NCBI GenBank assembly: GCA_029262515.1 | Contig: JAJCZH010000030.1 | Coordinates: forward strand, 1 to 39,891 | Direction: 5' to 3' | From: Deltaproteobacteria bacterium | GTDB lineage: Bacteria > Desulfobacterota > GWC2-55-46 > JADFVP01 | Length of the DNA: 39,891 nt | In this document: positions 4,461-39,751 of the stretch, piece by piece | How the letters are laid out: every line of letters starts with the position of its first letter | Position numbering within the stretch: position 1 is the first letter of the stretch | The notes under the pieces: generated by a model | What the model saw: only the letters and a program-made list of their open reading frames with translations | Told to the model about the DNA's origin: nothing | Databases searched by the model: none | Position numbers and translations under genes: made by a program

Positions 4461-4850
4461 GCCTGTTCACTATCTCACAAGTTGATTTCGTTTGTTTTTC
4501 TCGGCGACTGGGCTTTGTGTACTCTTATACTGCCTATATATAAAGTAATACCTCTTGAACCTATCGACATCTAGAGTTGTTTTCTAAAGTATAAACGTAC
4601 TGAAAATATTGGAACACAAGCACATAATCCTATTGTTGTTGATGCTGATGGTGAGGGCATTCTTGTTTTGCAAAGAGAGTATTTATTGAACATCTCCAGG
4701 AGATAAACTCACACTAGAAATGTTTGAGTTTTTAGGCTGGTTTTGGAGCTCGGGGCTACTACAGGGAGGAAAGTCTACAAAGATACGATTACTGTTTGTC
4801 AATTATCCTAGAATAAAAACCGGATGGGCCGTTGGTCTTTAATACCGGCA
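4461..4850. other. 390-base gap without recognisable gene
   Basis: Only short open stretches are present, for example a plus-strand piece reading NPIVVDADGEGILVLQREY near 4627-4690, which ends at a stop and lacks a start with a ribosome site. It could be a gene relic. The minus-strand sequence just after the 4851 stop carries a loose CCGG-based hairpin followed by five T residues (about 4815-4845), a weak terminator candidate for the receiver-PilZ gene. Confidence 0.25.
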
Positions 4851-5585
4851 TCAAACCTGACTTTGTGAGCGCATAGTGATAAAATTTTCCAATGTCTCTT
4901 GGTCATCTTTCGACACCCCGATAAACATCAGCCCGTACCCGCATAAAACGGACTGGTCTGCCAGATTGTCTATTGCCCACTTGAGTGTGCTTTTAATATT
5001 TAAGACCTTGTCTATCCCAGGCAATGAGAACTTAAGGTCAAGCTCTGTTTTATCATCAAGTTCAGCCCCTGTATACAAGAATGCCCCACTTTCGCTTATA
5101 TTGATAATGGTGCCTGTAGAGCCGAAATTTCCAAGCGAAAAGTCTACAGGTATAGATACTGACAACCTTTCCCTGTGTAAGCCTTTGGCTACCTTATCGG
5201 TAAATAGCAGCTTGTTCACCTGAAAGATGATCTGCTCGGCCGCCAAACTTTTTGACATAAACCCCGACACACCGAGATCTGTTAGTTGTTCTACCACCTC
5301 TGAGGTTTCATAAGCACCTGTTACCGCAAGTATTGGAAATTTGCCAATATATCCATGATCACCCATCCATTGTAAAACACCGTAGCCGTCAAGGTCAGGC
5401 ACCTGCACGTCAAGTATCAGAAGGTCTATCCAGTCAGGGTTAATTCTTATAGCCTCTATAACCTCATTCCTATTCTCGGCATAATTGATATTGTGTCCTG
5501 CCCAAATAAGTACGTTGCTCAATTTGATTCTAAAAAACAAAGAATCGTTAGCGACAAGAATATTCATCGATTTTTTCGTAGACAT
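4851..5585 (-). CDS. response-regulator receiver domain fused to PilZ domain
   Basis: The start is taken at the ATG at 5585, which has an AAGGGA ribosome site 8 bases upstream. A longer frame to 5663 lacks one. The 244-aa product has a receiver domain (residues 7-120) with Asp14, phospho-acceptor Asp59, Thr89 and Lys112. Only one acidic residue (AND) sits where two are usual. A PilZ-like domain follows (about 135-240). Its second c-di-GMP motif is clear (NISESG), but the RxxxR motif is imperfect (KGLHR, or RER). It would couple phosphorelay input to c-di-GMP-responsive output. No cognate histidine kinase is adjacent, and the GGDEF-EAL gene follows 390 bases downstream on the same strand. Confidence 0.8.
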   Translation of the reverse strand: MSTKKSMNILVANDSLFFRIKLSNVLIWAGHNINYAENRNEVIEAIRINPDWIDLLILDVQVPDLDGYGVLQWMGDHGYIGKFPILAVTGAYETSEVVEQLTDLGVSGFMSKSLAAEQIIFQVNKLLFTDKVAKGLHRERLSVSIPVDFSLGNFGSTGTIINISESGAFLYTGAELDDKTELDLKFSLPGIDKVLNIKSTLKWAIDNLADQSVLCGYGLMFIGVSKDDQETLENFITMRSQSQV

Positions 5586-5992
5586 AAGTAATCCCTTCAA
5601 TACCATGATAATTGCATACTGTTTAATATGTGTCAGGTTAACAGATATACACAAAGCAATCAATCTGATCTTTCTAGTTGAATTGTATAGACTCTTCAGC
5701 TCTTTGGTCCATTTAATAATGGGCTTGTGTTTATTTCCAGCATAACTGTCACGTATAGCGATAGTTATACTGGAAAAGCAAAGTACAGGAAGTAGCCCTT
5801 AAAAGCCTGGCAGGTCTGAGGAATTAAAGGCCAGGGTATTGGCTCGCCTAAGACCTCTCAACTCTGAGGGGGGACCAAATAGTAGGGGCTGGTCGTGTAC
5901 CCAGAGTGCTTTATATGTGTGTATCCTTATTATTTTTGCCTTAGATTGTTTTGTAGCTTCTTTATTACTAAAAATATGTAGTAAGTTTTTGC
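5586..5992. other. intergenic region with a possible structured RNA element
   Basis: No gene is seen. At 5812-5856 a long-range stem forms: AGGTCT (5812-5817) with AGACCT (5851-5856), extended by AGG/CCT after one mismatch, enclosing a GGCC/GGC sub-hairpin. A second CTC/GAG hairpin follows at about 5856-5870. It could be an RNA leader or relic. No known riboswitch consensus was recognised. At about 5744-5770 there is an additional ATAACT/AGTTAT inverted repeat. Confidence 0.25.
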
Positions 5993-6029
5993 AAAAAAAA
6001 AGGGGCTACGTCAAATGACGTAACCCCTT
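5993..6029 (-). terminator. rho-independent terminator of tRNA-Phe
   Basis: On the minus strand, AAGGGG and TACGTCA pair with TGACGTA and CCCCTT across a two-base loop with one mismatch. A run of eight or more T residues (the A run at 5993-6001 on the plus strand) follows immediately. It lies 77 bases past the tRNA 3' end. Confidence 0.85.
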
Positions 6030-6105
6030 CACTGCAACAATGGTCTATTATGCCGTAACAGCTTGAAGTGTAGGCTAACTTCAAGGCTTGCGACCGTATT
6101 GTTAG

Positions 6106-6181
<76 letters not shown>

Positions 6182-6194
6182 ATAAGAATTTACT

Positions 6195-6223
6195 TTTATA
6201 GAATAAAGGCCCTTTAATGTCAA
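6195..6223 (-). promoter_or_regulatory. sigma-70 promoter of tRNA-Phe
   Basis: On the minus strand, TTGACA (6218-6223) and TATAAA (6195-6200) are separated by 17 bases. The start would fall near 6188, just ahead of the mature 5' end at 6181. This is a near-consensus strong promoter, as expected for a stable RNA. Confidence 0.8.
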
Positions 6224-6385
6224 GTCTTTTGTAGAGCCTGTTAAAGCGCCGACCTCTTTATTTATACCGCGAATAAGCGTACTCTATAGAGCTGGCAGCT
6301 TAAAAAGTTATGGGCAAAAAAACTTTGTAGCTGTCAGCTATTTTTATGGCAGCGGACTGTAAAACCTGTTCAATTGTTAATAGTT

Positions 6386-6414
6386 TTGAATTTATCCGAA
6401 GAGTATAGTATAAA
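6386..6414 (+). promoter_or_regulatory. sigma-70-like promoter for the HD-GYP gene
   Basis: TTGAAT (6386-6391) and TATAAA (6409-6414) are spaced by 17 bases, predicting a start near 6421 and a leader of about 70 bases. Nothing else is seen in the 308 bases between tRNA-Phe and this gene besides the two promoters. Confidence 0.5.
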
Positions 6415-6489
6415 TAAGTTATTAAATATTGCAGTATCCGGTGTTTTCCCAAAAGCTTTGATATGTTGTCGCCTGGGGGGCTTTAAGTA

Positions 6490-7569
6490 GTGGCTGAAAC
6501 GGTTGAACAGAAAGAGAATGTTCTCGTTGTCGATGATGATGAATTTGTCAGGGATTCTACGACCCTGCTTTTAAAGAGGCACGGTTTTGTAGTTACCGCC
6601 TGTGTAAATGCGTCCGATGCTTTGCATAAGTTCATAAACGGCAACTATAGTACCGTTCTTACGGACATCAGAATGCCGGGGCTTTCCGGTATCGACCTTC
6701 TGGGTAAGATTCGCGAAATTAATACCGAGGTTCCGGTAATTATGATGACTGCATATGCGGACCTCGATTCTGCTGTAGGCGCAATTAAAAAGGGCGCCTT
6801 CGATTTTATAATGAAACCGTACACGCCTGAGTACCTTATTCACTCGCTCAACAAGGCGGTCAATTATAATCGGCTTATCCAGATGGAGAAGTCATATAAG
6901 CGCAGACTTGAGGCTGATGTCAGCAAGAGAACCCAGGAGTTGAACGACTCTTTTAAAAAGGTCAAGAACCTGAGTAATGAGGTGGCGATGAGGTTGACCG
7001 CTATTTCGGAGTTCAGAGATTTAGGCACCGGAGTCCACCTTAAGAGAATGGGCCGGTACTGTTCAAGGGTGGCACTTGAACTCGGTATGGATCAAGACTT
7101 TATAGATGAGCTTGTTTTTGCAAGCTCAATGCACGATATCGGCAAGATAGCGATACCAGATCGCGTACTTTTAAAACCGGGCCCGTTAACACCAGGTGAA
7201 TTCGCGACTATCCAGACCCATTCGGAGATAGGTTGTAAGATGCTCTCCGGCTCGGAATTCACTACCCTTCAGGTGGCTGCGACTATCGCGCACAGCCACC
7301 ACGAAAGGTGGGATGGAACCGGTTATCCTGATGGGTTGAGTGAAGGGGGCATACCGATAGAGGGGCGTATAGTTATGCTTGCAGATCAGTACGATGCCCT
7401 TAGGAGCAGCAGGCCGTACAAAGAGCCGTTCGATCACGGCAGGGCTTTTGAGATAATCACAAAAGGGGACGGAAGGACGGAACCGGAACACTTCGACCCG
7501 CAGATACTCGAAATTTTTAAAGAGAACCATCTCGTCTTCGACGAGATATTTACCTCCTGTCAGGGTTAA
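6490..7569 (+). CDS. response regulator with HD-GYP c-di-GMP phosphodiesterase output
   Basis: This 359-aa RpfG-like protein starts at a GTG preceded by a G-rich ribosome site (GGGGGG). The receiver domain (10-125) has DDD at 15-17, phospho-acceptor Asp59 and the Thr/Lys switch residues (MMTAYAD, MKPY). A coiled linker (about 130-175) leads to the HD-GYP domain, with HD at about residues 215-216 (MHDIGK), the second metal cluster [11 protein letters not shown] and GYP at about 278-280. HD-GYP enzymes hydrolyse c-di-GMP to pGpG or GMP, and phosphorylation of the receiver would control this. It is monocistronic. Its TAA overlaps the end of the convergent transglycosylase gene, so the two may interfere transcriptionally. 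Confidence 0.9.
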
Positions 7570-10061
7570 GACCTTTCGTTACCTCTTTCCAATTCCGCCT
7601 TGTATGCCGTTAACGGCCTCGTGAAACGTGTGGCCGGGTCGAGTCCTGCGGCTTTAAGATATTCGGTATAGCTTCTGAGCACGCGTTTGGTGTAGCGTCG
7701 CGTCTCGGTATAGGGGATCGATTCTATGAATTCATCGCGATCGAGTCGGCCTAGTTTTTTATCTCTGGACCATTTGGCTGCTGCGCTCGGCCCTGCGTTA
7801 TAACCGGCTATGGTGAGCACCAGGTTGTTGTCGAAACGGTCTGCCAGGTAACCGAGGTACCATGCGCCGTAGCGTATGTTCGTGTCCGGGGCGAGCAGTT
7901 CGGCCCTTGCGGGAGGGCGGGTGCGGAGTTTCATGGCGATAAAATCTCCGGTCTGCGGCATTATCTGCATAAGCCCGAGCGCTCCGGAGTGTGAGATCGC
8001 TTTCGGGTTGAAGGTAGACTCCTCTCTCATAATCGATGCAACGAGTAACGGGTCGGTTCTGGCCCATTTACCGTCATCCTCTCTATCGACACCTTCGATT
8101 CTTTTGACCACCCCCATTGGAAAGGCGATATTTTCAGGCTCTTCGCTCATAAGGTTGTAATGTCTGTTATAGACTTTCAGTCCACGGTAATAGTCTCCGG
8201 AGGCGTACAAGAGAGCTGCTATCTCTTTAACCTGTCCGGGGCTGCTATTAAGGCTTTTGGCCAGTATATTGAGCTCGTCGGCGGCCTCGCTATTGAGGCC
8301 GAGGGTTAGGAGTTCTCTGGCCGTTCTGTAACCCCTTTGTGCCTCCAGCGCGTCTGTCGCCAGTTTTTGTTCAGGTACGTCCGTGGCGTCTATACGGGAG
8401 CCCGGAGACTCGAGGCCTAGATTGCCGAGTCTCTCCGTTGCCATCTGGCAGTAGTATGTCGCTCCCCTGTCGTTACAGGATGCGTAGTACCCAAGGGCTG
8501 CTTCAGTACTTACCGATATGAGGCCCAGCCTTTCGGCGCTCCGTGCGCTCCAGTAGTTGAACCGTTCCCAATCCTCTTTTTGAAGACCTGCGGCCCATGC
8601 CGAATTTCGGTCCATGCCATCCAAGTATTCTGTGAGCACTCTCCGCGCCTCTTTATAGTCGCCCTTTACGTAACTCTTCCAGGCTAAATGCCACGAGGCG
8701 TGCATAGCCGGGCGGGTGTCGAACTCTTTTACAACCTGCTCAAAGTAGAGACGTGCGCGTTTAAAGTCTCCGAGTTTTTCATATAACCTGCCGGAAAAGA
8801 GGAGCGCCCAGGCCCTCTCTTTGCGATTAGGGGTAGCCTCGAGCGCTTGGAGCGCATACTCGATAATATCTGCTCTTTTCAGTCTCTGCGCCGTAAGTGC
8901 AATCCAGTAGAGCGCATCGGGCCTCTTCTCTTTATTGAGCTTGCCGAGAGACTCTTTGAGAGTCTTTACGGTTTCTTTATATCGCTTTTGCCGAAAGTGC
9001 GTAAGGGCTTTTAAGAGCACTGCATCCGTGAAGAGTTCACTACCGGTCTCATCTATTCCAGGAACTTCCAGTATGTTCTCCAGCTCTTTTAGTACCTCTT
9101 TAAACATAGCTGCCTTGTAGAGATTCTGTGCCCTGGTGAAGCGCATGGCTAGAGAGGGCGGGCTAATAGCTACGTCAACGAAACCTATCCATTCGAGCAC
9201 CTTTGAGGCCTCTTTTGCCTCTGCTGCGCCCGGGTGGTAGGTTCTCAGGCGCAGCGCAAAGGAGTGGGCGGTTGCAGGGTCGTTTATGACCCATGCCAGC
9301 CTTGCGGCCCGCAAGAGCGCAATAGGCGAAAGCCTGTGTGCTGGGTAGTCGTTAACCAATAACGTCAAAGAGTCGAGTGCGGCTTGCCGTCGTCCGAGCG
9401 TATTGTTAAGTTCCGCCTGTTCGAAAAGCAGCGTTGGTACCAGCGCCTGTGAGGCTGTTTTGTCTCTATATTGAATTAGCCGCGAGTTAAGAACCTCTAG
9501 CGCGCGCTCTGTCTCGCCTGTGGAGACGAGGGCCCGGGCCAGGTACAGATCTATATATTCGTCGATGTCGCTAAGGGCCTTCGCTTCACCCAGATACTTT
9601 ACGGCGTCGATATTGAGCGCCCTGCTTGGCGTAAGCACGGGTTGTCCGGTAGAGGTATGGTCGGCGGAGGTTCTGTTTTGAGTAACGCCAGTTTCAACAT
9701 TTTCTATCTTAAAAAGAGCCAGCAGCAATGCCCCGCGTGCCGCCTCCAGCGTACCCGGAAACGCCAGCCGCAGTTCGTACAACCGCTCCATGCTCTCGGC
9801 CCTGCGCCCTTGTTCTTTAGCTTCGACAGCTATTGCGAGGCAGTCTTTTGGCAGGCAGTTGCCCCATTTGGCTGTTTTTGTCCCTTCAGGCGAGCCTGAC
9901 AGGTCTGCACTCTGTTCGGCGCTAAAGTCGTCGGCAGATCTCGAATGAGTCGAGCATGACGAGGTTAAAAGCAGTAAAGAGAGCAGTATTAGCAGCAGGG
10001 GGGGCAGGGCAGGTATTCTTATTCTTAATCGGGCTGCTATTTTTCCTTGGCGCGCATACAT
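7566..10061 (-). CDS. lipoprotein soluble-lytic-transglycosylase (Slt70-like, TPR-rich)
   Basis: This roughly 831-aa periplasmic enzyme would cleave the MurNAc-GlcNAc bond of peptidoglycan to give 1,6-anhydro ends. A hydrophobic signal segment ends in lipobox LTSSC, so it is probably anchored as a lipoprotein. Residues about 50-640 are helical tetratricopeptide-like repeats forming the usual Slt superhelix. The C-terminal SLT domain (about 660-800) has catalytic Glu681 in [10 protein letters not shown], then [19 protein letters not shown] and IAGYNAGP. The ATG at 10061 is preferred over an upstream TTG because the predicted transcript starts at about that A. At more than 800 residues it is longer than E. 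coli Slt70 because of extra repeats. It is convergent with the HD-GYP gene. Confidence 0.88.
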
Positions 10062-10067
10062 GTACAA

Positions 10068-10096
10068 ATTATATCACGCCTCTGCGGGCGCGACAA
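10068..10096 (-). promoter_or_regulatory. promoter of the lytic transglycosylase gene, predicting a leaderless transcript
   Basis: On the minus strand, TTGTCG (10091-10096) and a perfect TATAAT (10068-10073) are 17 bases apart. The expected start, seven bases past the -10, coincides with the A of the ATG at 10061, and no ribosome site is present. Confidence 0.5.
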
Positions 10097-10103
10097 ACCG
10101 TTC

Positions 10104-10131
10104 TTGCATAACTCGTATGAAAGTGTATAAT
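10104..10131 (+). promoter_or_regulatory. promoter of glgP
   Basis: TTGCAT (10104-10109) and TATAAT (10126-10131) are 16 bases apart, with a start near 10138 and a leader of about 38 bases. Its -35 is only seven bases from the -35 of the divergent slt promoter, so one bound regulator could affect both. Confidence 0.6.
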
Positions 10132-10175
10132 TCTAGGACTTCACCTGGATATAAATTGGAGGCAAATGTACTGAT

Positions 10176-11891
10176 ATGCAGAGAATAAATGAATTGAGCG
10201 CAGAGGAGAAGATAGCATACTTCTCTATGGAGATCGGCTTCAGAAGTGATATCCCGACCTATTCCGGCGGACTCGGCGTGTTGGCCGGTGATACTATCAA
10301 AAGCACGGCTGACCTTAATCTTCCTGTAGTTGCCGTAACGCTTCTGCACAGAAAAGGGTACTTCAGGCAGGAGATAGACTCCGAAGGGCGCCAGATAGCC
10401 CATCACGAGCAGTGGAACCCGGCCGACCACCTGATACCTTTACCACAGAAGGTCAGGGTGCGGATAGAGGGCCGCGAGGTGGTTGTTCAGGCGTGGGTCT
10501 ACTATATAGCTAATCTCGTCACCAAGTGGACGGTGCCGATCTTTTTTCTCGACACAGATCTGCAGGAGAACGACCCTCAGGACAGGAGCATTACCGACGT
10601 CCTTTACGGCGGTGATAGCCGCCACCGGCTAAAGCAAGAGATAGTGCTGGGGCTCGGAGGTGTTCAGATGCTGCGCGCCCTCGGTTTTATGATAAAGAAG
10701 TACCACATGAATGAAGGGCACGCGAGTCTGCTTACGCTCGACCTGTTAAGCCGCCACAAGCGCGATATCGAGTCGGTATGGGATGAGTCCCAGATCTGGG
10801 ACACAGATAGCGTCAAGAGCCTATGCGTCTTTACTACCCACACCCCTGTGGAGGCCGGGCACGACAAGTTTCCTTATGACCTCGTCAGCGATGTGATGGG
10901 CGAGATAATCCCTATCAAGGTGCTTAAAAAGTTGAGCGGCGAGGATCGCCTCAATATGACGCTTCTGGCCATGAACCTCAGTATGTATATCAACGGTGTT
11001 GCCAAGAAGCACGGCGAGGTCTCTAAGAACCTCTTCCCGGGTTACCAGATTCAGGCGATTACCAACGGGGTTCATACTTATACGTGGACGTGCGAGAGCT
11101 TTGCGCGCCTCTATGACAAGTATATTCCTGGTTGGGCCAACGAGCCGGAACTCTTTGTAAGGGTACAGAAAATTCCCGCAGAGGAGATATGGGCTACGCA
11201 CATGGAAGCGAAGAATATACTCGTAGATTACATTAAGACCGCAACCGGCGTGGAGTATGATCCTGAGATATTAACGATCGGTTTTGCGAGAAGGGCGACT
11301 GCTTACAAGAGGGCGACTCTGCTCTTTAGGGATATGGAGCGCCTGGTGGGGATTGCCGGCAAGAAGGTGCAGTTCGTTTTTGCGGGCAAGGCGCACCCGA
11401 ATGATACGGACGGACAGGGGTTTATTCGCGAAATCTGCGCAAAGAGCAAGGAACTGGGGGCCGACATCAAACTCGTCTATCTCCAGAATTACAATATGGA
11501 CCTAGCTCTCAAGATCGTCTCCGGAGTTGACGTCTGGCTCAATACCCCGATGAGGCCGCATGAGGCGTCCGGTACTTCGGGTATGAAGGCCGCGCATAAC
11601 GGCGTGTTGAATTTTTCGGTTCTCGACGGGTGGTGGATTGAGGGCCATATAGAGGGTTATACTGGCTGGTCGATAGGCGCTCCCCCTGCAGGGGCTACGC
11701 TGGATGAGAGAACCGACGAGGAGGATGCCGAGGACCTCTATGTGAAGCTCAAAGAGCAACTGATTCCACGTTTTTACGATGACAGGTTTCTCTGGATAAA
11801 GATGATGCAGAGTGCGATAGGGATGAATGCTTACTACTTCAACACCCATAGAATGATGAGAAGGTACGTTACCGAGGCCTATATACGGTAG
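10176..11891 (+). CDS. glgP: alpha-glucan (glycogen/maltodextrin) phosphorylase, short form
   Basis: This GT35-family enzyme releases glucose-1-phosphate from alpha-1,4-glucans with pyridoxal phosphate. At 571 aa it is the short bacterial/archaeal type that lacks much of the regulatory N-terminus of the roughly 800-aa enzymes. Visible signatures are EKIAYFSMEIGF and YSGGLGVLAGD at the start, YHMNEGHASLL, the ITNGVHTYTW block, and RPHEASGTSGMKAAHNG with the PLP lysine at residue 471. Ribosome site GGAGG lies 13 bases before the ATG at 10176. An earlier ATG at 10166 opens a two-codon frame that stops in TGATATG at the real start, a possible minimal upstream ORF. It has its own promoter and a long terminal hairpin. 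Confidence 0.9.
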   Translation: MQRINELSAEEKIAYFSMEIGFRSDIPTYSGGLGVLAGDTIKSTADLNLPVVAVTLLHRKGYFRQEIDSEGRQIAHHEQWNPADHLIPLPQKVRVRIEGREVVVQAWVYYIANLVTKWTVPIFFLDTDLQENDPQDRSITDVLYGGDSRHRLKQEIVLGLGGVQMLRALGFMIKKYHMNEGHASLLTLDLLSRHKRDIESVWDESQIWDTDSVKSLCVFTTHTPVEAGHDKFPYDLVSDVMGEIIPIKVLKKLSGEDRLNMTLLAMNLSMYINGVAKKHGEVSKNLFPGYQIQAITNGVHTYTWTCESFARLYDKYIPGWANEPELFVRVQKIPAEEIWATHMEAKNILVDYIKTATGVEYDPEILTIGFARRATAYKRATLLFRDMERLVGIAGKKVQFVFAGKAHPNDTDGQGFIREICAKSKELGADIKLVYLQNYNMDLALKIVSGVDVWLNTPMRPHEASGTSGMKAAHNGVLNFSVLDGWWIEGHIEGYTGWSIGAPPAGATLDERTDEEDAEDLYVKLKEQLIPRFYDDRFLWIKMMQSAIGMNAYYFNTHRMMRRYVTEAYIR

Positions 11892-11920
11892 TTTTTTACT
11901 CTGTTTTATCTTGGTTTTAC

Positions 11921-11952
11921 AACATTGGCGCCGCAGTAGCGGCGCCAATGTT
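11921..11952 (+). terminator. perfect 14-bp stem hairpin after glgP
   Basis: AACATTGGCGCCGC (11921-11934) pairs exactly with its complement (11939-11952) across a four-base loop AGTA. The bases after it (GATTTCGCCATTTTT) are only loosely T-rich, so it is either a terminator or an RNA-stabilising 3' structure. Confidence 0.55.
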
Positions 11953-12105
11953 GATTTCGCCATTTTTACTTTCTTCCGGTTAAAACCGTCACAGTACCTT
12001 CCCCTGTGCAGACACCAGTTTTCTTGAAAAAATATTATTACTTCCGACTATTTTCAGGCTCTTTTCGGCGGTTAAGTTTTTGTTTTTTATGCCGATAGTA
12101 AGAGT

Positions 12106-12963
12106 ATGTTAGTTATTGTCGGCGCTTTAGTCGTCACCTTCAGTATCCTCGGCGGATACGTCATGCACCACGGGAATCTTGCTGTCCTGTACCAGCCAAC
12201 CGAGTTTATTATCATTGGCGGGGCCGCTATCGGTTCGCTTGTCATTGGCACACCCGTAAAGGTGATCAAGGAAATCCTGAAGAGCATTCCTAAGCTTTTC
12301 GGTGCTGGCTCTGTCAATAAAAAGACCTATATGGAACTGCTTGCCATGCTCTACAATCTCTTTTCCAGGATCAGAAAAGAGGGTGTGCTCGCCGTTGAGG
12401 CCGATATTGAGGATCCTGAAAAGAGCAAGTTTTTTGCCGATTACCCGACCATTATGAAGAACCATCACGCCATGGAGTTTCTCGTAGACAACCTCAGGGT
12501 CTTTGTCATCGGCATAGACCCGATGGAACTTGAGGAGATGATGGACCTCGAGATCGAGACGCACCATGAAGAGGCGGGCAAGGCGGCATCTTCCATAACC
12601 GGTGTCGGAGACGCGCTTCCTGGCTTCGGAATCGTAGCTGCCGTTTTAGGTGTTGTCGTAACCATGGGCAAGATGAGCGAAGGCCCCGAGGCAATTGGAG
12701 CGAGTGTCGCTGCCGCGCTCATCGGCACCTTTCTCGGTATCCTGCTCGCTTACGGTTATGTTGGTCCTATAGGAAGTCTCCTTGCGGCAAAGGTCGAGAT
12801 AGAGTCCAAGATATTTGAGACGATAAAGGTAGCTATTGTCAGTTTCGCAAAGGACCTGCCTCCCCAGATGGCGGTTGAGAGCGCAAGAAGAGTGCTCTTT
12901 AGCGATGTGAAACCGTCGTTCAAGGAGCTTGAAGAGAGCGTAAGAAAGAAAAAGAAAAAATAG
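12106..12963 (+). CDS. motA: flagellar motor stator protein MotA
   Basis: This 285-aa inner-membrane subunit of the proton-driven flagellar stator has four membrane segments: residues about 3-20, about 32-50, about 170-192 and about 203-225. A cytoplasmic loop (about 60-165) carries the charged rotor-contact region around FSRIRKEGVLAVEADIEDP. The two conserved prolines are visible in DALPGFGI and YVGPIG. The C-terminus is very basic (RKKKKK). The start follows from the conserved N-terminus (MLVIVGALVVTFSILGGY), although the ribosome site is poor. It is followed by motB after 95 bases. No other flagellar gene is in the window. Confidence 0.92.
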   Translation: MLVIVGALVVTFSILGGYVMHHGNLAVLYQPTEFIIIGGAAIGSLVIGTPVKVIKEILKSIPKLFGAGSVNKKTYMELLAMLYNLFSRIRKEGVLAVEADIEDPEKSKFFADYPTIMKNHHAMEFLVDNLRVFVIGIDPMELEEMMDLEIETHHEEAGKAASSITGVGDALPGFGIVAAVLGVVVTMGKMSEGPEAIGASVAAALIGTFLGILLAYGYVGPIGSLLAAKVEIESKIFETIKVAIVSFAKDLPPQMAVESARRVLFSDVKPSFKELEESVRKKKKK

Positions 12964-13058
12964 AAAGAACAGAAGAAAAGCAATATAAACCGGTTATAAC
13001 CCGGCAATGTAAAGAGACGGTGTTTGAGAGCCGCGCCCGTGTTTCCATAGGTAGGTAG

Positions 13059-31211: not shown

Positions 31212-31288
31212 GGCGGTGTAGCTCAGGTGGCCAGAGCAGGGGTCTCATAAGCCCCTTGTCGGTGGTTCGAGTCCACCCACCGTCACCA
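31212..31288 (+). tRNA. tRNA-Met (CAT)
   Basis: This is a 77-base cloverleaf with acceptor GGCGGTG/CACCGTC (one G-T pair), discriminator A and encoded CCA (31286-31288). The anticodon loop CTCATAA gives CAT. The GGTTCGAGTCC T-arm is canonical. It lacks the initiator hallmark of three G-C pairs above the anticodon (stem GGGGT/GCCCC). It is most likely elongator Met, though a lysidine-modified tRNA-Ile2 also has CAT. A TATAAT at 31178-31183 may be its -10. Its 3' end is the probable integration site of the adjacent element. Confidence 0.93.
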
Positions 31289-31360
31289 TTTTCTCTTTTA
31301 CATTCCAACAACTTACGTCACTCAACAAAACCACTTTTCTTAATAAGCAGCCCGACTGTG

Positions 31361-32404
31361 CTAAAATTGGGCTAATCGCCGGGAAGTCTCCGGTGGCGAG
31401 TCTAAAATGTCTACGCCGTCCCTCAGACTTTCGGGATAATGGTGTGCGTAACGCTGTGTAGTCTTAACATCTCTGTGCCCTAGAAGCTTCTGCGCCTTGT
31501 AGATATCTATGCCCCTCTGAACGAGTCTTGTGGCAAAGGTATGTCGAAGGTCGTGGAAACGGAAAGCGTCGATCCTTGCCTCTTTCACGGCCTTCATAAA
31601 GGCCGTTCGAAGACGATGTGCGACAATCATGTTGCCTTCGGAGCAGGTGAAGATATAATCGCTCGTCAAGTAACGTACCTTGCCTTTCTTCTGAAGAAGT
31701 CCCCAGACCGTTTTGTTGAGCGGCATGGATCGTCTATGGCCGTTCTTGGTCTCGTGAAGGGTAGCGATGCCTCTAGTGAGGTCAACGTCCTTTCACTTGA
31801 GACTTAGAATCTCGCCCTGCCTCATACCAGTATTGAGCGCGAACGTTACGATCTCGCTCAACCACGCAGGAGTTGCCTTTAAGAGCCGCTCTTCCTCTGA
31901 GGCGGTTAGCCACCTGTCTTTCGGCTGGCCTTCCTTCTCCATCGAGACCCTTTTGACAGTGTTGTCTCTGCACCACTCCCACTCCTTGATCGCCACCGAG
32001 TACATATGCTTCATGACGGTAAGCTCTCTGTTGATAGTAGCTCCCTTTACACCCTTTTTATACCTGTACTGCTTATAGGCAGAAATGAACTTCGGGGAAA
32101 CTTCCGTTACGATCGTAGAGCCAAAGAACGGAATGAGGTGTACCTTGAGCCTCTCGGCGTACTTCTTCCAGTCCTTCTTGTTGTTCCTGCAATGCTCGTT
32201 TACGTACTTGTCGGCAAGTTCCTCAAAGGTTCGGTTGTCGCCTTCGAGTTTATCAAGCCACTTGCCTTCTGCAATTTCGGCCATTACCTTGTGGTGAATC
32301 TTCTCGGCAATGCGCCGGTCTCTAGTCTCGGTAGACCTCTTGATCTGTCTGCCATTGTACGTAAAGCGTATCCACCAGACCGTTCCTCTTTTGAAGAGTC
32401 CCAT
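31361..32404 (-). pseudogene. tyrosine recombinase/integrase interrupted by an in-frame TGA
   Basis: Reading through one stop gives a 347-codon phage-type integrase. The N-terminal part (1-203, from ATG 32404 with perfect AAGGAGGT) has the arm-binding start WWIRFTYNGRQIKRST, the core-binding domain and catalytic Arg195 (TGMRQGE). TGA at 31795-31793 is codon 204, in the position of the usual Trp in LSLKWKDVDL. The frame then continues without shift: Lys220, His284-x-x-Arg287 (HDLRHTFATRL), His310 (LGHRD) and Tyr319 (QRYAHH), ending at TAG 31361. All catalytic residues are present, so a single TGG-to-TGA change is the simplest account. Its ATG overlaps the upstream HTH gene stop (TAATG). Confidence 0.85.
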
Positions 32405-32730
32405 TAAGACCTCCTTCCTTGAGACCCTGATCTTGGTCTGGTTTTCCGTTTGGAAGGAGTATACCTTGAACCGTTGGTTCCCTCAATGGCTTTGTTTACG
32501 ATTGCGTCTATGTCGAGATTCTTTGTGGATTTTGTACGTAACGTAAGAACGTTAGCAGGTATGACTCTTGAGGCCTCAACAATTTCCATAACCTCTGTGG
32601 GATCGAATCGCAGAGAGATGCCAAGCTTACGGGTGGGTATTATGCCGTTACGTACCCATGAGTAAAGTGTAGACCTCTTTACGTTGAGGTACTCCGAGAC
32701 TTCTTTTACTGTCCAAAGCTTTTTCTTCAT
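32404..32730 (-). CDS. excisionase-like helix-turn-helix protein
   Basis: This roughly 108-aa protein starts at ATG 32730. A GTG four codons upstream is also possible. Residues 1-50 form a MerR/Xis-type winged helix-turn-helix (LWTVKEVSEYLNVKRSTLYSW, then GIIPTRKLG and RFDPTEV), the pattern of excisionase-family DNA-binding proteins. A less conserved helical part and a very basic C-terminal tail (SKRKTRPRSGSQGRRS) follow. The motif TAACGTACGT at 32730-32739 touches the start codon, which suggests autoregulation. It overlaps the integrase start by one base, as in xis-int pairs. Confidence 0.8.
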   Translation of the reverse strand: MKKKLWTVKEVSEYLNVKRSTLYSWVRNGIIPTRKLGISLRFDPTEVMEIVEASRVIPANVLTLRTKSTKNLDIDAIVNKAIEGTNGSRYTPSKRKTRPRSGSQGRRS

Positions 32731-32904
32731 AACGTACGTCACACCTGTTTTGTTGTATACGTAATTTATGCGTTGGGTTCAGCAAGCGTGCCTACGTTAC
32801 TTAACGTTAGGCCTTTTGCTTGCTAATCCTCTACTGGTGTTAAGTGTAGTTGTTAGGAAGAAATAAGTCTTCGACACTGATAGGGGTACTTTTTGTCTAA
32901 CTGA

Positions 32905-33870
32905 TTATTTGAAGATAGGTTTGATGTGACGATCAAGGAATTTGTAAAATGCGCCACCTTCTAACGAAGGAAGGACTAACCCGCAGGACTTAAGGAAGGC
33001 GTGAAGCTCAGGCGCGGTTAGTTTGTATAGACCCGTATACCAGAAGAGGCTGAGGACAGTATACGTCTTGCCGTGCTGCCCGACTCTACGTAACGGGTCG
33101 TCCGATATCGCCTTGCCGAGTTTGGAGAAAAACTTCTTGTCCCCTGAAAGCTGAGCTTGGACTATTCGTTTCTTCGCAGCCATATTGTACAAGAGACTTT
33201 TATCGATGGTTATAGCCTTGAACAAGGACTTGTCATCACCTTTGGAAAAGTTAGCTGTAAGCTCCGCAAGGGTCTGTTGGTTTGCGATCTGAGAATAGGA
33301 GGAAAGGAGAGAGCTGAAAACGGTTGCAAGAGCACTTGACCTCAACAGGTAGTCGGATTTCTTGCCAACTATCGGGTCGCCTTCAAACTCAAGGCTTACG
33401 TAACGTATGAACAGAGAGTAAACAACGGAGAAATAATCGAGAAAATCTTTGTCGGATAGATTTGCTTTTTTACTTAGTCCCTTTTCCGTAGCAAGAGCCT
33501 TGAACTTATCCGTATAAAATTTTCGGCTCTCTTCTTCGGGCAGTTTTCTTATAAATCTTGGAGATAGTTTAATGGTAACGTCACGGTCTTCCATAGATTC
33601 AAGCAGCTTGAGAATACTACTTGTACCTCTTTTGCTTGTTAGTCCGGCCTTCTGTGTGTGCTGAAGAAACTCTTTAAAGCCTCCTTCTAGGCTAAGACCT
33701 TGAGGCTTGGAGTTTTCAGTAATGGATTCAACAAGCTCGTCTGGAAAACCCGGAAGGCCGTCATGTGGTGCTCTTTCGAGCTGGCCTAAAAACGTAACGT
33801 ACGTCTTGATAGGCTTGATGAGGGCAGGGTCGATTTTTTCTTTCCAACGGTATGTTACGTACGTAGGCAT
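32905..33870 (-). CDS. unrecognised 321-aa protein of the integrative element
   Basis: The protein is mostly alpha-helical and basic, without signal peptide or membrane segment. The N-terminus (MPTYVTYRWKEK) and residues about 22-27 (KTYVTFL) are encoded by copies of the island motif. The middle part has hydrophobic helices (DYFSVVYSLFIRYVSLEF). The C-terminal 75 residues (DPLRRVGQHGKTYTVLSLFW, then LTAPELHAFLKSCGL) could be a winged-helix-like DNA-binding domain. This is inferred from pattern only. No family is recognised. It is preceded by the 41-bp palindrome 63 bases upstream and lies about 170 bases before the HTH gene. A replication/partition initiator or a regulator that binds the motif would fit. 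Confidence 0.6.
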   Translation of the reverse strand: MPTYVTYRWKEKIDPALIKPIKTYVTFLGQLERAPHDGLPGFPDELVESITENSKPQGLSLEGGFKEFLQHTQKAGLTSKRGTSSILKLLESMEDRDVTIKLSPRFIRKLPEEESRKFYTDKFKALATEKGLSKKANLSDKDFLDYFSVVYSLFIRYVSLEFEGDPIVGKKSDYLLRSSALATVFSSLLSSYSQIANQQTLAELTANFSKGDDKSLFKAITIDKSLLYNMAAKKRIVQAQLSGDKKFFSKLGKAISDDPLRRVGQHGKTYTVLSLFWYTGLYKLTAPELHAFLKSCGLVLPSLEGGAFYKFLDRHIKPIFK

Positions 33871-33932
33871 GGGGATAAGATAGCAAAAAGGAGTGAGCGT
33901 TACAAAGCATATGAATAGAAATTTTCTATAAC

Positions 33933-33973
33933 GCCCCTAACGTAACGTACGTAACGTACGTTACGTTAGGGGC
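33933..33973. promoter_or_regulatory. perfect 41-bp palindrome built from TAACG units
   Basis: Two exactly complementary 20-base arms flank a single A at 33953. The left arm begins GCCCCTAACGTAACGTACG and the right arm ends CGTTAGGGGC. It sits 63 bases upstream of the 321-aa gene and contains three copies of the ACGTAACG octamer. It is a strong candidate for an operator or origin site, or a cruciform-forming recombination site. Confidence 0.7.
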
Positions 33974-34238
33974 ATGATAGTTTAGTAGGTATTTCCGCAA
34001 TGTAACGTTAGAGAGTGTTGATAAGGCATGACTTAGAGAAACTGTGCTAGTATGCAACAGTACTTCCTGAAATATATAAAGTGAAAATAGTGCAACATCA
34101 TGCATGTTTCAACTGTTAATCACCAAACTCCTCCGTACAGTTATTTAAGGTTTTCTTGTTGGTCGCCGAAATAAAAGATTAAGTATCTTTGATTACCGAT
34201 TAACTGCAGCTTTGTTGCTTCTACTAATAGGCGCAACT
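33974..34238. other. intergenic region between the palindrome and the second GGDEF-EAL gene
   Basis: It contains the last island motif copy (TAACGTTA, 34003-34010) and AT-rich sequence. A TGC-TAGTAT at about 34049-34057 could be an extended -10 for the plus-strand gene. No gene is seen. Confidence 0.3.
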
Positions 34239-36503
34239 ATGGAGAAAAGACAACATATACTGCAATGGATGCACTTTGTTGTAATTATTGCCGCCGGGTT
34301 ATCTACCGCCTTAGGGGGTCTGGTATTGATTGGGTGGTACACCCATAGCGTATCCCTCATTCAGGTGTGGTCAACGTTTGTGCCGATGCAGTTTAATACT
34401 GCCCTTGGATTCCTGCTTTGCGGGATAGGATTATTTTCACAATCATCAGGCCATAAGCGTCTGGCAGTAGTCTGTGGTGTAACAGTCGGGACAGTTGGTT
34501 CTCTGACAATGTTACAATATGTTTCGGGTGCGGATTTTGGGATTGACCAACTCTTTATGAAACATTATATAACCGTCAAGAGCTCACATCCAGGCCGCAT
34601 GGCACCGAATACGGCGATTTGCTTTTTCTTCAGTGGAGTGGCCCTGGCGGTCAGGAATAATTTCTTCGCATCAAGGCGTCGCCACCTGATGGTTTGGCCC
34701 TTGGGTTCTATTGTTATCGCCTTGGGCCTGGCAGCTTTCATTGGTTACCTCGGTGGTGTAGAGACAGCCTATGGCTGGGGAGCGCTCACCCAGATGGCTG
34801 TTCACACATCGGCAGGCTTTATCGTATTGGGCACAGGTATTTTTATGCTTGCCTGGCGTGAAGGAGTGTTAGAAGATTCGACAAACATCGTACCTCCCTG
34901 GTTTTCTATTGCCGCAGGTTTAGGCATGATATCGATTGTCGTCATTTTTTGGCAGGCTTTATTTTTACATCATAACGCACCGGACGCACCGGTTCACGAT
35001 AGTCACTCAGACTTTTTTACTTATTCCATTCTGGTAATGGGCCTTCTGATGAGCGTGTTGTTGGTCCTCGTAATCCGGTTTGCGCAGGCCTCGTCTCGTC
35101 GCGCGGCAGAACTTGAAGAAGCCACACTGGAGTTGGAAAGAGATATCATAGAACGGAAACACTCGGAAGAGTCTATCAAGCACCTGGCTTATTACGACCA
35201 TCTCACTGGACTTCCGAACCGGCTCCTGTTTACAGACCGCCTTGATCATTTATTGCTTAGAGAGGCATGGAAGCAGAGAACCGCGGCCGTACTCTTTCTC
35301 GACATCGACCGCTTCAAGACAATAAACGACTCTCTTGGTCATTCCTACGGAGATGAGCTTTTGAGGGTTGTGGCCAGCCGGCTTGAGGAGTGTTTGAGAG
35401 AAGGTGATACCGTGGGGCGTTTTGGCGGTGACGAGTTTACTATCCTGCTTCACGACCTTGCGAAAGTAAATGACATAGCTATGGTGCTTGAAAAGATACT
35501 CAATACCATTAAACAACCAATAGTGATTGAAGGCCAAGAGGTCAAGGTTACCGCCTCCATCGGTGTAAGTGTTTTTCCTAATGACGGATCTGACGGTGGC
35601 ACGCTTCTTAAGAACGCCGATATCGCGATGTATCGCGCAAAGTCGGAAGGCAAGAATAATTATAAATTCTTTTCGTTATCAATGTCTGTCAAGGCCACCG
35701 AACTTCTTAAGGTGGAGCGCAAATTGAGTAAGGCTCTCGACAATGGGGGATTCATATTACACTACCAGCCAGAGATCGACTTGAAAACAGGTGAATTTGT
35801 CGGCATGGAGGCTCTCGTAAGGCTCATTGACCAAGAGGATGGCAAGCTCACACCACCAGGAGATTTTATACCCGTCGCCGAGGAAACCGGAATAATTATT
35901 CCTTTAAGCGAGTTGATATTAAGAACGGCATGCCAGCAGAACAAGGCCTGGCAGGATGCCGGGTATCCATCGATGACAATAGCTGTTAACATCTCCCCGA
36001 AGGTCTTTAGGCAGAATAATTTTATACAGATAGTTGCCGACATCATAAAGGAGACTGGTCTTAAACCGGAGTATCTGGAGATAGAGATAACAGAAGAGAC
36101 TATGTTGACAGACACCGAAGAGACTTTAGAGACGATGGGAGCCTTAAAAGAGATAGGAGTTAGATTCGCAATCGATGATTTCGGAACAGGATACTCATCG
36201 CTCAGCTACATAAAGATGTTACCGATAAGGATGCTCAAGATAGACAGAGCATTTATCCGCGATCTCAATGATAATCCTGATGATAAAGCGATAGTAACGG
36301 CCATAATTCAAATGGCACACAGTATGGGGCTTGAGGTGCTTGCCGAAGGTGTCGAAACTAAAGAGCAGTTAGCGTTCTTAAATTCTCTCGGATGTGACAA
36401 GCTTCAAGGGTATTTGGTTAGCAAGCCCGTTCCTTATGACGAGTTTGAGAACCTGCTTAAAGAGGCTCCAGGTGCCAAGAAAGATATGATGGCCTCCGCA
36501 TAG
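34239..36503 (+). CDS. membrane diguanylate cyclase/phosphodiesterase (multi-pass sensor-GGDEF-EAL)
   Basis: This roughly 754-aa protein has an N-terminal integral-membrane sensor (about residues 1-275, seven or eight hydrophobic helices with the conserved-looking GRMAPNTAICFF). A coiled coil (about 280-315, ELEEATLELERDIIERKHS) follows. The GGDEF domain (about 320-485) has an intact GGDEF near residue 396 and RxxD inhibitory site REGD. The EAL domain (about 500-745) has EALVR, EITEETM, DDFGTGYSS and AEGVET. Both catalytic sites look complete. ATG 34239 is preferred over TTG 34212, with a weak AGG upstream. The HxxxAYYDHLTGLPNR junction is similar to the window's other GGDEF-EAL, but the sensors are unrelated. 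Confidence 0.9.
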   Translation: MEKRQHILQWMHFVVIIAAGLSTALGGLVLIGWYTHSVSLIQVWSTFVPMQFNTALGFLLCGIGLFSQSSGHKRLAVVCGVTVGTVGSLTMLQYVSGADFGIDQLFMKHYITVKSSHPGRMAPNTAICFFFSGVALAVRNNFFASRRRHLMVWPLGSIVIALGLAAFIGYLGGVETAYGWGALTQMAVHTSAGFIVLGTGIFMLAWREGVLEDSTNIVPPWFSIAAGLGMISIVVIFWQALFLHHNAPDAPVHDSHSDFFTYSILVMGLLMSVLLVLVIRFAQASSRRAAELEEATLELERDIIERKHSEESIKHLAYYDHLTGLPNRLLFTDRLDHLLLREAWKQRTAAVLFLDIDRFKTINDSLGHSYGDELLRVVASRLEECLREGDTVGRFGGDEFTILLHDLAKVNDIAMVLEKILNTIKQPIVIEGQEVKVTASIGVSVFPNDGSDGGTLLKNADIAMYRAKSEGKNNYKFFSLSMSVKATELLKVERKLSKALDNGGFILHYQPEIDLKTGEFVGMEALVRLIDQEDGKLTPPGDFIPVAEETGIIIPLSELILRTACQQNKAWQDAGYPSMTIAVNISPKVFRQNNFIQIVADIIKETGLKPEYLEIEITEETMLTDTEETLETMGALKEIGVRFAIDDFGTGYSSLSYIKMLPIRMLKIDRAFIRDLNDNPDDKAIVTAIIQMAHSMGLEVLAEGVETKEQLAFLNSLGCDKLQGYLVSKPVPYDEFENLLKEAPGAKKDMMASA

Positions 36504-37096: not shown

Positions 37097-39316
37097 TTAA
37101 TGCAGATCAAACCGGTCGAGGGTCATCACCTTGGTCCATGCCGCCACGAAGTCATTCACAAACTTCGCTTTTGCATCGTTGGCTGCATAGACCTCCGCAA
37201 CAGCGCGCAACTCGGAGTTAGAACCGAAGATCAAATCAACCGGAGTGGCGGTCCATTTGACTTTACCAGTTGAACGGTCACGGCCTTCATAAATGCCTTC
37301 GATTGAAGCCTTCGACCACTTAGTTGATATATCAAGCAAGTTAACAAAGAAGTCATTGCTCAATGTGCCCGTACGATCAGTGAATACACCATGCTTGGAA
37401 CCACCCGTGTTGGCATCCAGCGCACGCAGTCCACCAACCAGCACTGTCATCTCCGGCGCTGTCAGGGTTAGCAGATCAGCTTTTTCAACCAGCATCTCTG
37501 TTGGTGTTCCGTAGCTAGGACTGTAGAAGTTACGGAACGCATCAGCCGTTGGTTCTAGTACGGCGAAAGATACCACGTCTGTCTTCGCTTGTGTAGCATC
37601 GACACGTCCCGGTTTGAAGGGGACCTCCACTTTGTATCCGGCATCTTTCGCAGCCTTTTCTATCGCGGCAGCGCCGCCTAACACGAACAGGTCGGCGAGG
37701 GAAATCTTTTTGCCCTTCTTTGCCTTGCTGTTAAAGTCATTCTGGATGCCCTTCAGACCTTTCAGCACCTTCGCAAGTTCTTTCGGATTGTTGGCTTCCC
37801 AATCCTTTTGCGGCACCAGTTGAATGCGTGCGCCATTGGCACCGCCGCGCATATCAGAACCTCGGAAGGTCGAAGCTGATGCCCAGGCGCTTCTGACCAG
37901 TTCGGGAACAGTTAAACCCGACTTGAGGATTTCAGATTTTAGCTTCTTAACATCCCTCGCATTAACCAGTTTATGGTCAACGGCAGGAATCGGATCTTGC
38001 CATACAAACACTTCGCTGGGAACTTCCGCGCCTACATAGCGAGCACGCGGACCGAGGTCACGATGTGTCAGCTTGAACCAGGCACGGGCAAAGGCCTTGT
38101 CAAACTCGCCTGGATTCTTCAGAAAACGCTTGGAAATCTTGCGGAAACCCGGATCTTTTTTCAGCGCCATGTCTGTGGTGAACATGATTGGGGCGTGGCG
38201 CTTATCTTCGATGTGGGCATCAGGAGTCAACTCTGCCGCGTTCTTATCGGTCGGAATCCATTGCGTTGCACCAGCAGGACTCTTGGTCTTTTTCCACTCG
38301 AAGCGGAAAAGGTTGTCCAGGAAGAGGATCGACCAGGCAGTCGGTGTTGATGTCCATGCGCCTTCCAGGCCACTGGTTATGGTGTCTTCTGCAGTTCCTT
38401 TACCACACTTATTCTTCCAGCCGAAACCTTGTTCCTCGATAGCGGCAGCAGCTGGCTCCACACCGACACAATCACCGGGAGACTTGGCACCATGGGCCTT
38501 ACCCAGAGTATGCCCTCCCGCAACCAGAGCCACGATCTCTTCATCGTTCATCGCCATGCGACCAAATGACAGACGCATATCCTGGGCGGCAGCGAGGGGG
38601 GCATGATTGGCGTTGGGTCCTTCCGGGTTTACGTAAATTAAACCCATTTGCACTGCGGCAAGTGGCTTTTCCAGTTTGCCACCTTTGTAGCGCTCGGTGT
38701 TATTGAGCCATTTGGTTTCTGACCCCCAGTACACCTCATCAGCTTCCCAGTCATCGGCACGACCTCCGGCAAATCCTAGGGTTTCAAAGCCCATGGACTC
38801 CAATGCAACATTCCCGGCGAGGATCATCAGGTCAGCCCATGATACATTGCGACCGTATTTTTGCTTAACCGGCCACAGCAGCCGACGAGCCTTATCGAGG
38901 TTGGCGTTATCAGGCCAGCTGCCTTGTGGCTCATAACGAATCTGACCACCATCGGAACCACCACGACCATCCCAAATACGGTAGGTACCGGAGCTGTGCC
39001 ACGCCAATCTTATCATCAGACCGCCATAGTGGCCCCAGTCAGCCGGCCACCAACCCTGAGGCGTGGTCAGGACTCTCTCAATGTCCCCCTTCAGTTCTTT
39101 CATATCAACACTGGCGAAAGCCTTGGCGTAATCGAAATCTTCACCATAGGGATTCGAAGAAGTATCGTGTGCGCGCAGTTGATCAAGGTTGAGTTTATCA
39201 GGCCACCAGAATTTATTCGTGGTTGCCTCACCCACAGCAAAAGTGGGGCTGGCTGATATGGCCAGGGACATGAATACCGCTAACGCGGTGAGTAATCTTT
39301 TTGCTGTCTTATTCAT
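37097..39316 (-). CDS. katG: exported catalase-peroxidase
   Basis: This 739-aa bifunctional haem enzyme removes hydrogen peroxide. The distal site [13 protein letters not shown] has Arg103, Trp106 and His107. The Met-Tyr-Trp crosslink partners are visible in [10 protein letters not shown] and [10 protein letters not shown]. The proximal haem ligand is His269 ([12 protein letters not shown]), and the proximal Trp lies in [14 protein letters not shown]. Unlike cytosolic KatG it has a Sec signal peptide (cleavage after Ala27 in SASPTFA), as in periplasmic KatP-type enzymes. Length is full, with both N- and C-terminal peroxidase-like halves. ATG has AAGGAGGTT upstream and there is a strong terminator. 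Placement beside the tRNA-Met island and an IS suggests acquired cargo. Confidence 0.95.
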
Positions 39317-39751
39317 TTATAACCTCCTTGAATTGAGATATTTAACGGGTAAAAAAACTTCTTTTCTTACATATTCTAAGTTCTTTAGTGCCTGATAAAT
39401 ATTTAGCTTCGTTAATGATTAGTAAATTTGAATAATTTAATCGTTATGCTCTGTAATTTCGAACATCTTAGAGCTGCCGTTAACAGGTGACCCTATGTTC
39501 TCTATCAAGTAACTTTCTCATGCAGTGCGGTGCAAGTGATGGGAAGTTGCCTTTTTAACTTTAAGTATAGACTAGCAGAATAATTCAATAATTCAACCGT
39601 TGAACCAGTAGGAAAACCACTCTTTCTATCTGTAATCGTTAATTCTTGATATTTTTCTTTCCGCTGCTTTGTAGGTGTAAGTCGTAATCTTCCACTGTGC
39701 TAAAAAAATGTCTCGTAATTTCACGAAGGGGCTGTGGAAGCCCCTTGCTGG
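39317..39751. other. AT-rich gap between katG and the insertion sequence
   Basis: No gene is seen. It must hold the katG promoter on the minus strand, but no convincing -35/-10 pair was found. AAGGGGCT/AGCCCCTT with loop GTGGA (39726-39746) is a perfect 8-bp hairpin without a T run, immediately left of the IS end. A minus-strand frame at 39626-39835 runs across the IS end and is not supported. Confidence 0.4.

Follow-up and report, generated by a model that had tools for sequence, protein, structure and literature searches.

The window (the whole stretch of 39,891 nucleotides that we analysed) contains the core of a small, tRNA-integrated element, made of a tyrosine integrase, an excisionase-like HTH protein and a 321-aa protein. 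The presumed integration site is a tRNA-Met(CAT) gene on the plus strand (31212-31288), and the core genes are all on the minus strand. Downstream of a perfect 41-bp palindrome (33933-33973, no strand assigned), they follow one another in the order 321-aa gene (protein P0001, 32905-33870, predicted to be all-helical), xis (32404-32730, encoding an HTH_17 excisionase-like protein) and integrase gene (31361-32404), the end of which lies 72 bases from the tRNA gene. The integrase is interrupted by an in-frame TGA (31793-31795) and appears as two open reading frames (31793-32404 and 31361-31726), so that this copy is probably not self-mobile. The presumed integrase arm-type site TTTTAGCACA is present on the minus strand both at the integrase end (31357-31366) and at the far end (39696-39705). 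Since TTTTAGCACA(GT) is found in matching orientation at 31357 and 39696, the element may extend to the contig end, with the GGDEF-EAL (34212-36503) and KatG (37097-39316) genes as cargo. No att core repeat was found for it, and the contig ends near this far end.

The genome from which the window comes (2.5 Mb, 38 contigs) carries four relatives of this element, namely L012, L013, L014 and the degenerate L005; a tyrosine integrase sits beside a tRNA gene in the window, L013, L014 and L005, as well as in L020, from another family of the order. L014 is a complete element of 8.5 kb inserted at tRNA-Glu (4502-13014), bounded by an exact 46-bp att repeat that corresponds to the 3' half of the tRNA up to the anticodon loop, with the arm-like repeat GGCTACGTTTT at both ends. 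It carries genes for a rolling-circle Rep, a SpoVG-like protein, an MrcB_N-HNH restriction protein, a PDC-S07-like protein and IS3-type transposases. Defence genes lie beside several relatives, the MrcB_N-HNH and PDC-S07-like genes of L014 being one example, and a C5 methyltransferase, a restriction enzyme, Vsr and HEC-05 are found near L019. At 6931-7200 of L012, arm-like repeats flank a 3' fragment of tRNA-Met, an arrangement that would be expected for an attP or for a tandem pair of integrated elements.

The 321-aa protein has few homologues. A search of relatives found them in 5 of 59 genomes, the window genome counted, and the pattern used on 84,980 species genomes picked out five loci, among them some in Deltaproteobacteria MAGs and one in a Brocadiaceae bacterium. 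In some cases an integrase again accompanies the homologue close to a tRNA gene. Viral contigs gave no homologue, and the phage and plasmid collections gave no match for the family, by protein or by DNA. The C-terminal part of P0001 weakly resembles phage lambda Gam (PF06064) over about 62 residues (E 6.6e-4), with a score of 20.3 bits that falls below the Pfam cut-off of 25; most of the protein lies outside this match, and none of the homologues tested matched Gam at all. The AF2 model of P0001 is of low to middling confidence (pLDDT 65.5). Foldseek returned no match to it at E <=0.001, the best VIA-align hit (Z 4.7 over 60 residues of helical repeat) is uninformative, and Gam is absent from both lists. 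Next to the 321-aa family, L021 (6281-7372, 363 aa) and L023 (2645-3961, 438 aa), elements of a Planctomycete and of a pseudomonadotan respectively, encode related-looking unassigned proteins; they have no convincing Pfam match and may be replication proteins or initiators.

Between the 321-aa gene and xis lies a conserved 25-nt hairpin, GACACTGATAGGGGTACTTTTTGTC (32873-32897). Its pattern, GACANNNANNGGGGTNNTTTTTGTC, occurs five times in 48 genomes of the order, always within these elements, and is also present in a Brocadiaceae bacterium. The loci are at about 8594-8618 in L012, about 9511-9535 in L013, 1323-1347 in L015, 7908-7932 in L005 and 5588-5612 in L021, where the hairpin stands some 50-80 bases behind the 321-aa homologue; L016 has a variant at 1437. 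The stem is 7 bp long, and two outer pairs are changed on both sides, that is, they covary. No Rfam match was found at the five loci scanned; as a guess, the hairpin might serve as an antisense terminator or as a nick site.

The palindrome and its surroundings

The palindrome reads GCCCCTAACGTAACGTACGT-A-ACGTACGTTACGTTAGGGGC, with two 20-base arms that are fully complementary about base 33953, which confirms the perfect 41-bp symmetry described at the outset. Its core, TA-ACGT-A-ACGT-ACGT-A-ACGT-ACGT-T-ACGT-TA, consists of six ACGT units spaced by 4-5 bases. Each unit being self-complementary, the symmetry of the core is partly explained by its composition, but that of the GCCCC/GGGGC flanks is not. 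An imperfect inverted repeat prolongs the structure to 33926-33980, with 27-base arms (33926-33952 and 33954-33980) that are 93% complementary. We compared the palindrome with Markov models fitted to the elements at orders 1, 3 and 5 (400 runs each), of which the fifth-order model already encodes the ACGT arrays. The longest palindrome that this model produced was 25 nt (29 nt when the palindrome was excluded from training; 400 runs of 2841 nt), and none exceeded 29 nt at any of the three orders. The palindrome, which is exact, is thus well outside what chance would produce. Folded as single-stranded DNA, it reaches -24 kcal/mol (z -8.2 versus shuffles), and no consensus sigma-70 promoter overlapping it was found.

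The palindrome is located 62 bases upstream of the ATG of the 321-aa gene (33870), and it is surrounded by smaller sites. A second palindrome, ATAGAAATTTTCTAT (33915-33929), lies between it and the gene, and an outlying site, TGTAACGTTA (34000-34009), is upstream. Inside the 321-aa gene, sites are present in codons 2-6 (GTTACGTACGT, 33850-33865; the remnant of the gene in L005 has a similar site at the same place), at 33790-33804 (AAACGTAACGTACGT), at 33396-33407 (TTACGTAACGTA) and at 33086-33096, a position that reads CTACGTTACGTAG in L012 and CGTTACGTAACG in L013. Upstream of xis there is an intergenic dyad, CCTACGTTACTTAACGTTAGG (32791-32811), followed by AACGTACGT and GTATACGTAA directly before the ATG (32731-32764), and within xis the site GTACGTAACGTAAGAACGTTAG (32534-32555) falls at a position where six of the seven aligned xis genes have an ACGT site. 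The preliminary description held that the palindrome is made of the same units as a dispersed motif, and this is borne out: GTAACG occurs 37 times in the window for 16.7 expected, clustered at 31448-34007. Two side observations concern the same upstream regions. A sequence resembling ATAGAAATTTTCTAT is found at the equivalent place in L005, and GTACTTCCTGNA is found upstream of the 321-aa-family gene in three elements (L012, 9960; L013, 10684; the window, about 34101).

A dispersed ACGT word in related elements

The word ACGTWACG/TAACGT is common to the window element, to four more elements of its genome and to one in another family of the order. It is found in intergenic arrays that include shorter palindromes, and inside the coding sequences of int, xis and the 321-aa gene. 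The 8-mers ACGTTACG and ACGTAACG occur 26 and 32 times in the five elements of the window genome, where flanking and host DNA predict 0.2 and 0.3. With their neighbours they are the most over-represented 8-mers of these five elements, and also of L020. The consensus of the sites is around TAACGTWACGTTA. Other matches to CGTAACGTACG in the genome are isolated single copies.

In each motif-bearing element that has a xis gene, an array is found upstream of xis-int (upstream of xis in the window, L012, L013, L014 and L015/L020), and in the window, L005 and L015/L020 the 321-aa gene is preceded by an array too. Where ACGT units follow one another closely, the step is mostly 4-5 bases, and every motif-bearing element has palindromes built from them, of 12 to 41 bp overall and of 12-22 bp outside the window. 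In L067, an element from yet another family of the order (G025 contig 146, 1-490), five tandem units of about 62 bp stand upstream of xis with a different word, ACGTGC/CACGTG, which is also present inside xis. Each of these units contains a GTGACATTTTC..GAAATGTC hairpin or a similar one, plus ACGT dyads.

The coding sites were evaluated with synonymous-codon shuffles that keep amino acids and codon counts fixed, using the 7-mer ACGTWAC. It was found 37 times in core genes for 11.7 expected (z 8.5), while host genes have 3 for 2.4 expected and cargo genes 0 for 0.1; a reversed control pattern was near expectation in every lineage. The excess is significant in the window (p 0.0005), L012 (p 0.015) and L020 (p 0.0435), and suggestive in L005 (p 0.077) and L014 (p 0.125), where it is weak with this 7-mer. 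The word family is hence restricted to the element cores, and its excess there goes beyond codon use. Between lineages, the coding sites mostly lie at non-homologous codons. The main exception is the xis linker site, which six of the seven aligned genes share partly because the Asn-Val that it encodes is conserved. As non-homologous coding sites are joined by motif-bearing elements in several integrase lineages, the word has been gained repeatedly and, judging from its distribution, appears to be under selection.

Candidate determinants of the word

We then asked which protein follows the word. Xis is present in five of the six motif-bearing elements, and in motif-negative ones as well. Across the 30 xis loci examined in the order, the window genome and G027 alone show TAACGTWACG-type enrichment; G023 has a weaker TACGTA signal, and G025 has ACGTGC. 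Xis was rejected as the sole determinant, since xis genes 55-61% identical to that of G027 come without the motif, and the HTH of the protein is nearly unchanged in motif-negative elements. No other regulator was found in the motif-bearing elements. The 321-aa protein fails in the same role, its family being present without the motif in L017, L018/L022, L021 and L023, and with almost no motif in L016/L019. Of 48 genomes of the order, a single one has the rolling-circle Rep (P0005, REP_ORF2-G2P), in L014. Rep was discarded as the binder because it was not found in G027, whose element has the motif; in the stretches examined, no Rep gene could be recognised in five of the six motif-bearing elements. 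Xis, the 321-aa protein and Rep thus each co-occur imperfectly with the motif.

Nor does the motif track the phylogeny of the integrase, in whose tree the motif-bearing elements fall into several lineages: the window integrase has two motif-negative ones as sisters (support 100/99), those of L012 and L013 group with a motif-negative and an ACGTGC-type element, and that of L005 with G027. Two further candidates were set aside. A host-wide signal such as Chi or an uptake sequence was rejected because the word is not enriched in host genes, and the ACGT sites are not the arm-type sites of the integrase either, the arm-like repeats being different words at the element ends (TTTTAGCACA, or GGCTACGTTTT in L014).

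Reading of the sites and comparison with known systems

Selected short dyads in both regulatory and coding DNA of the core point to protein binding, and many near-identical short sites are spread across the element, in promoters as well as in genes. The reading that we favour, at roughly even odds, is that the palindrome is the densest member of a family of short ACGT-core dyad sites for a putative sequence-specific regulator, of operator/stoperator type. A dimeric DNA-binding protein would bind the dyads; the arrays would be operators at the promoters of xis-int and of the 321-aa gene, the sites inside core genes would be stoperator-like, and binding would keep the core repressed or organised while the element is integrated. 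In the window copy, overlapping sites would form one long palindrome. The binding, the repression that it would exert and the nature of the protein are inferred. Against this reading, stoperators that function mostly share one orientation (PMC6550527), and a dyad cannot reveal an orientation.

A bolder version, to which we would give little better than one chance in five, has a single trans factor reading the ACGT dyad, with unrelated integrase lineages of one host each having recoded their own core genes. The factor would then serve silencing, replication or mobilisation, and would load most strongly at the 41-bp palindrome.

If the favoured reading is right, mobile elements whose integrases are of different lineages have converged on one short word, carried in their regulatory and coding DNA alike, and selection on element-wide cis sites becomes measurable. 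The 41-mer would be a defined bait for the protein that reads the word, and small defence-carrying islands, in a bacterial order that has been little studied, would be seen to have a control layer accompanied by a conserved hairpin.

Slightly less probable than the bolder version is that the factor is encoded outside the elements, as a host chromatin protein or as the regulator of a helper phage or conjugative element, and that the elements acquired the word for silencing, packaging or mobilisation. Satellites that respond to helper regulators are known, four integrase lineages share the word in one genome, and the word follows the phylogeny of neither xis, int nor the 321-aa gene. However, elements from the same genus in G001 lack the word, as does L063, another xis-int element of the window genome, where we saw no 321-aa gene, and no helper element with the word is among the matches listed.

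The origin of replication that had been proposed at the outset is possible and unsupported as it was stated, the only Rep gene having been found in one element. We consider it rather unlikely, in the form of arrays acting as iterons for an initiator upon excision, with the conserved hairpin as a nick or unwinding site. It would account for the arrays right behind the Rep gene of L014, and arrays and a covarying hairpin within one intergenic region do resemble an origin. Yet the rarity of Rep and its absence from G027 argue against it, it does not explain the sites across int and xis coding DNA, and L014, the Rep carrier, lacks the conserved hairpin pattern.

We regard as improbable that the whole is a mutational by-product, in which slippage and template switching would have multiplied the ACGT repeats and the palindrome would be a recent, functionless correction of a quasi-palindrome. 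One of its arms matches L005 while the second resembles that arm copied in inverted orientation, the number of array units is not the same in L012 and L013, and template switching at quasi-palindromes, which extends arm identity, is a documented mode of correction (PMC7202029, PMC3820800). Slippage would not, however, scatter isolated sites to non-homologous coding positions in several lineages.

Under the favoured reading too, as template switching can extend arm identity, perfection alone is no proof of selection, and that of the window copy may come from such a correction and not from selection for a cruciform; for a cruciform recognised by an element-encoded nuclease, as once suggested, no nuclease or cruciform evidence was found. 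L005, the nearest relative of the upstream region, keeps the ACGTTAGGGGCGTTATAG arm along with the adjoining sequence on the gene side, with a spaced ACGTWACG array in place of the palindrome, but because its 321-aa gene is broken it is no clean test of maintenance. The early impression that the palindrome is maintained therefore stands for the site family, which looks maintained, and not for the palindrome, which is absent from L005 though arm and array persist there, and whose perfection could have another cause.

The private autoregulatory operator of the 321-aa gene, suggested by the position of the palindrome and by sites just upstream of the 321-aa homologue in L015/L020, is very unlikely and is not the general rule, as L012 has an intact 321-aa gene with no site upstream and an array between this gene and xis, arrays recur upstream of xis-int, and sites also fill int and xis coding DNA.

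The operator/stoperator-like reading can be set beside three known systems. A short word repeated in direct array between the genes of a small element recalls the iteron arrays of plasmids or satellites, such as P4 ori/crr and the R6K gamma ori; here, in contrast, sites also lie within coding genes, and in the stretches examined most of the elements have no recognisable Rep gene. The elements resemble tRNA-integrated islands and phage satellites with defence cargo, such as P4-like elements, PICI and PICMI (PMC9122126, PMC10803314), through their tRNA-associated tyrosine integrase, excisionase-like HTH protein, small size and the defence cargo beside several copies. They differ in that no capsid, packaging or helper-linked genes were seen in the motif-bearing elements, and in a 321-aa family without phage or plasmid match. 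The closest likeness to the sites themselves is with the stoperators of Cluster A mycobacteriophages (L5, Bxb1; PMC6550527), short repressor sites that are dispersed over an integrating element, some in promoters and most elsewhere. The sites of the phages are asymmetric and mostly in one orientation, while those described here are palindromic, clustered in a core of about 2.5 kb and served by a putative repressor. In both cases the consensus varies between relatives, as the ACGT words do here, from TAACGTWACG in the window element to ACGTGC in L067.
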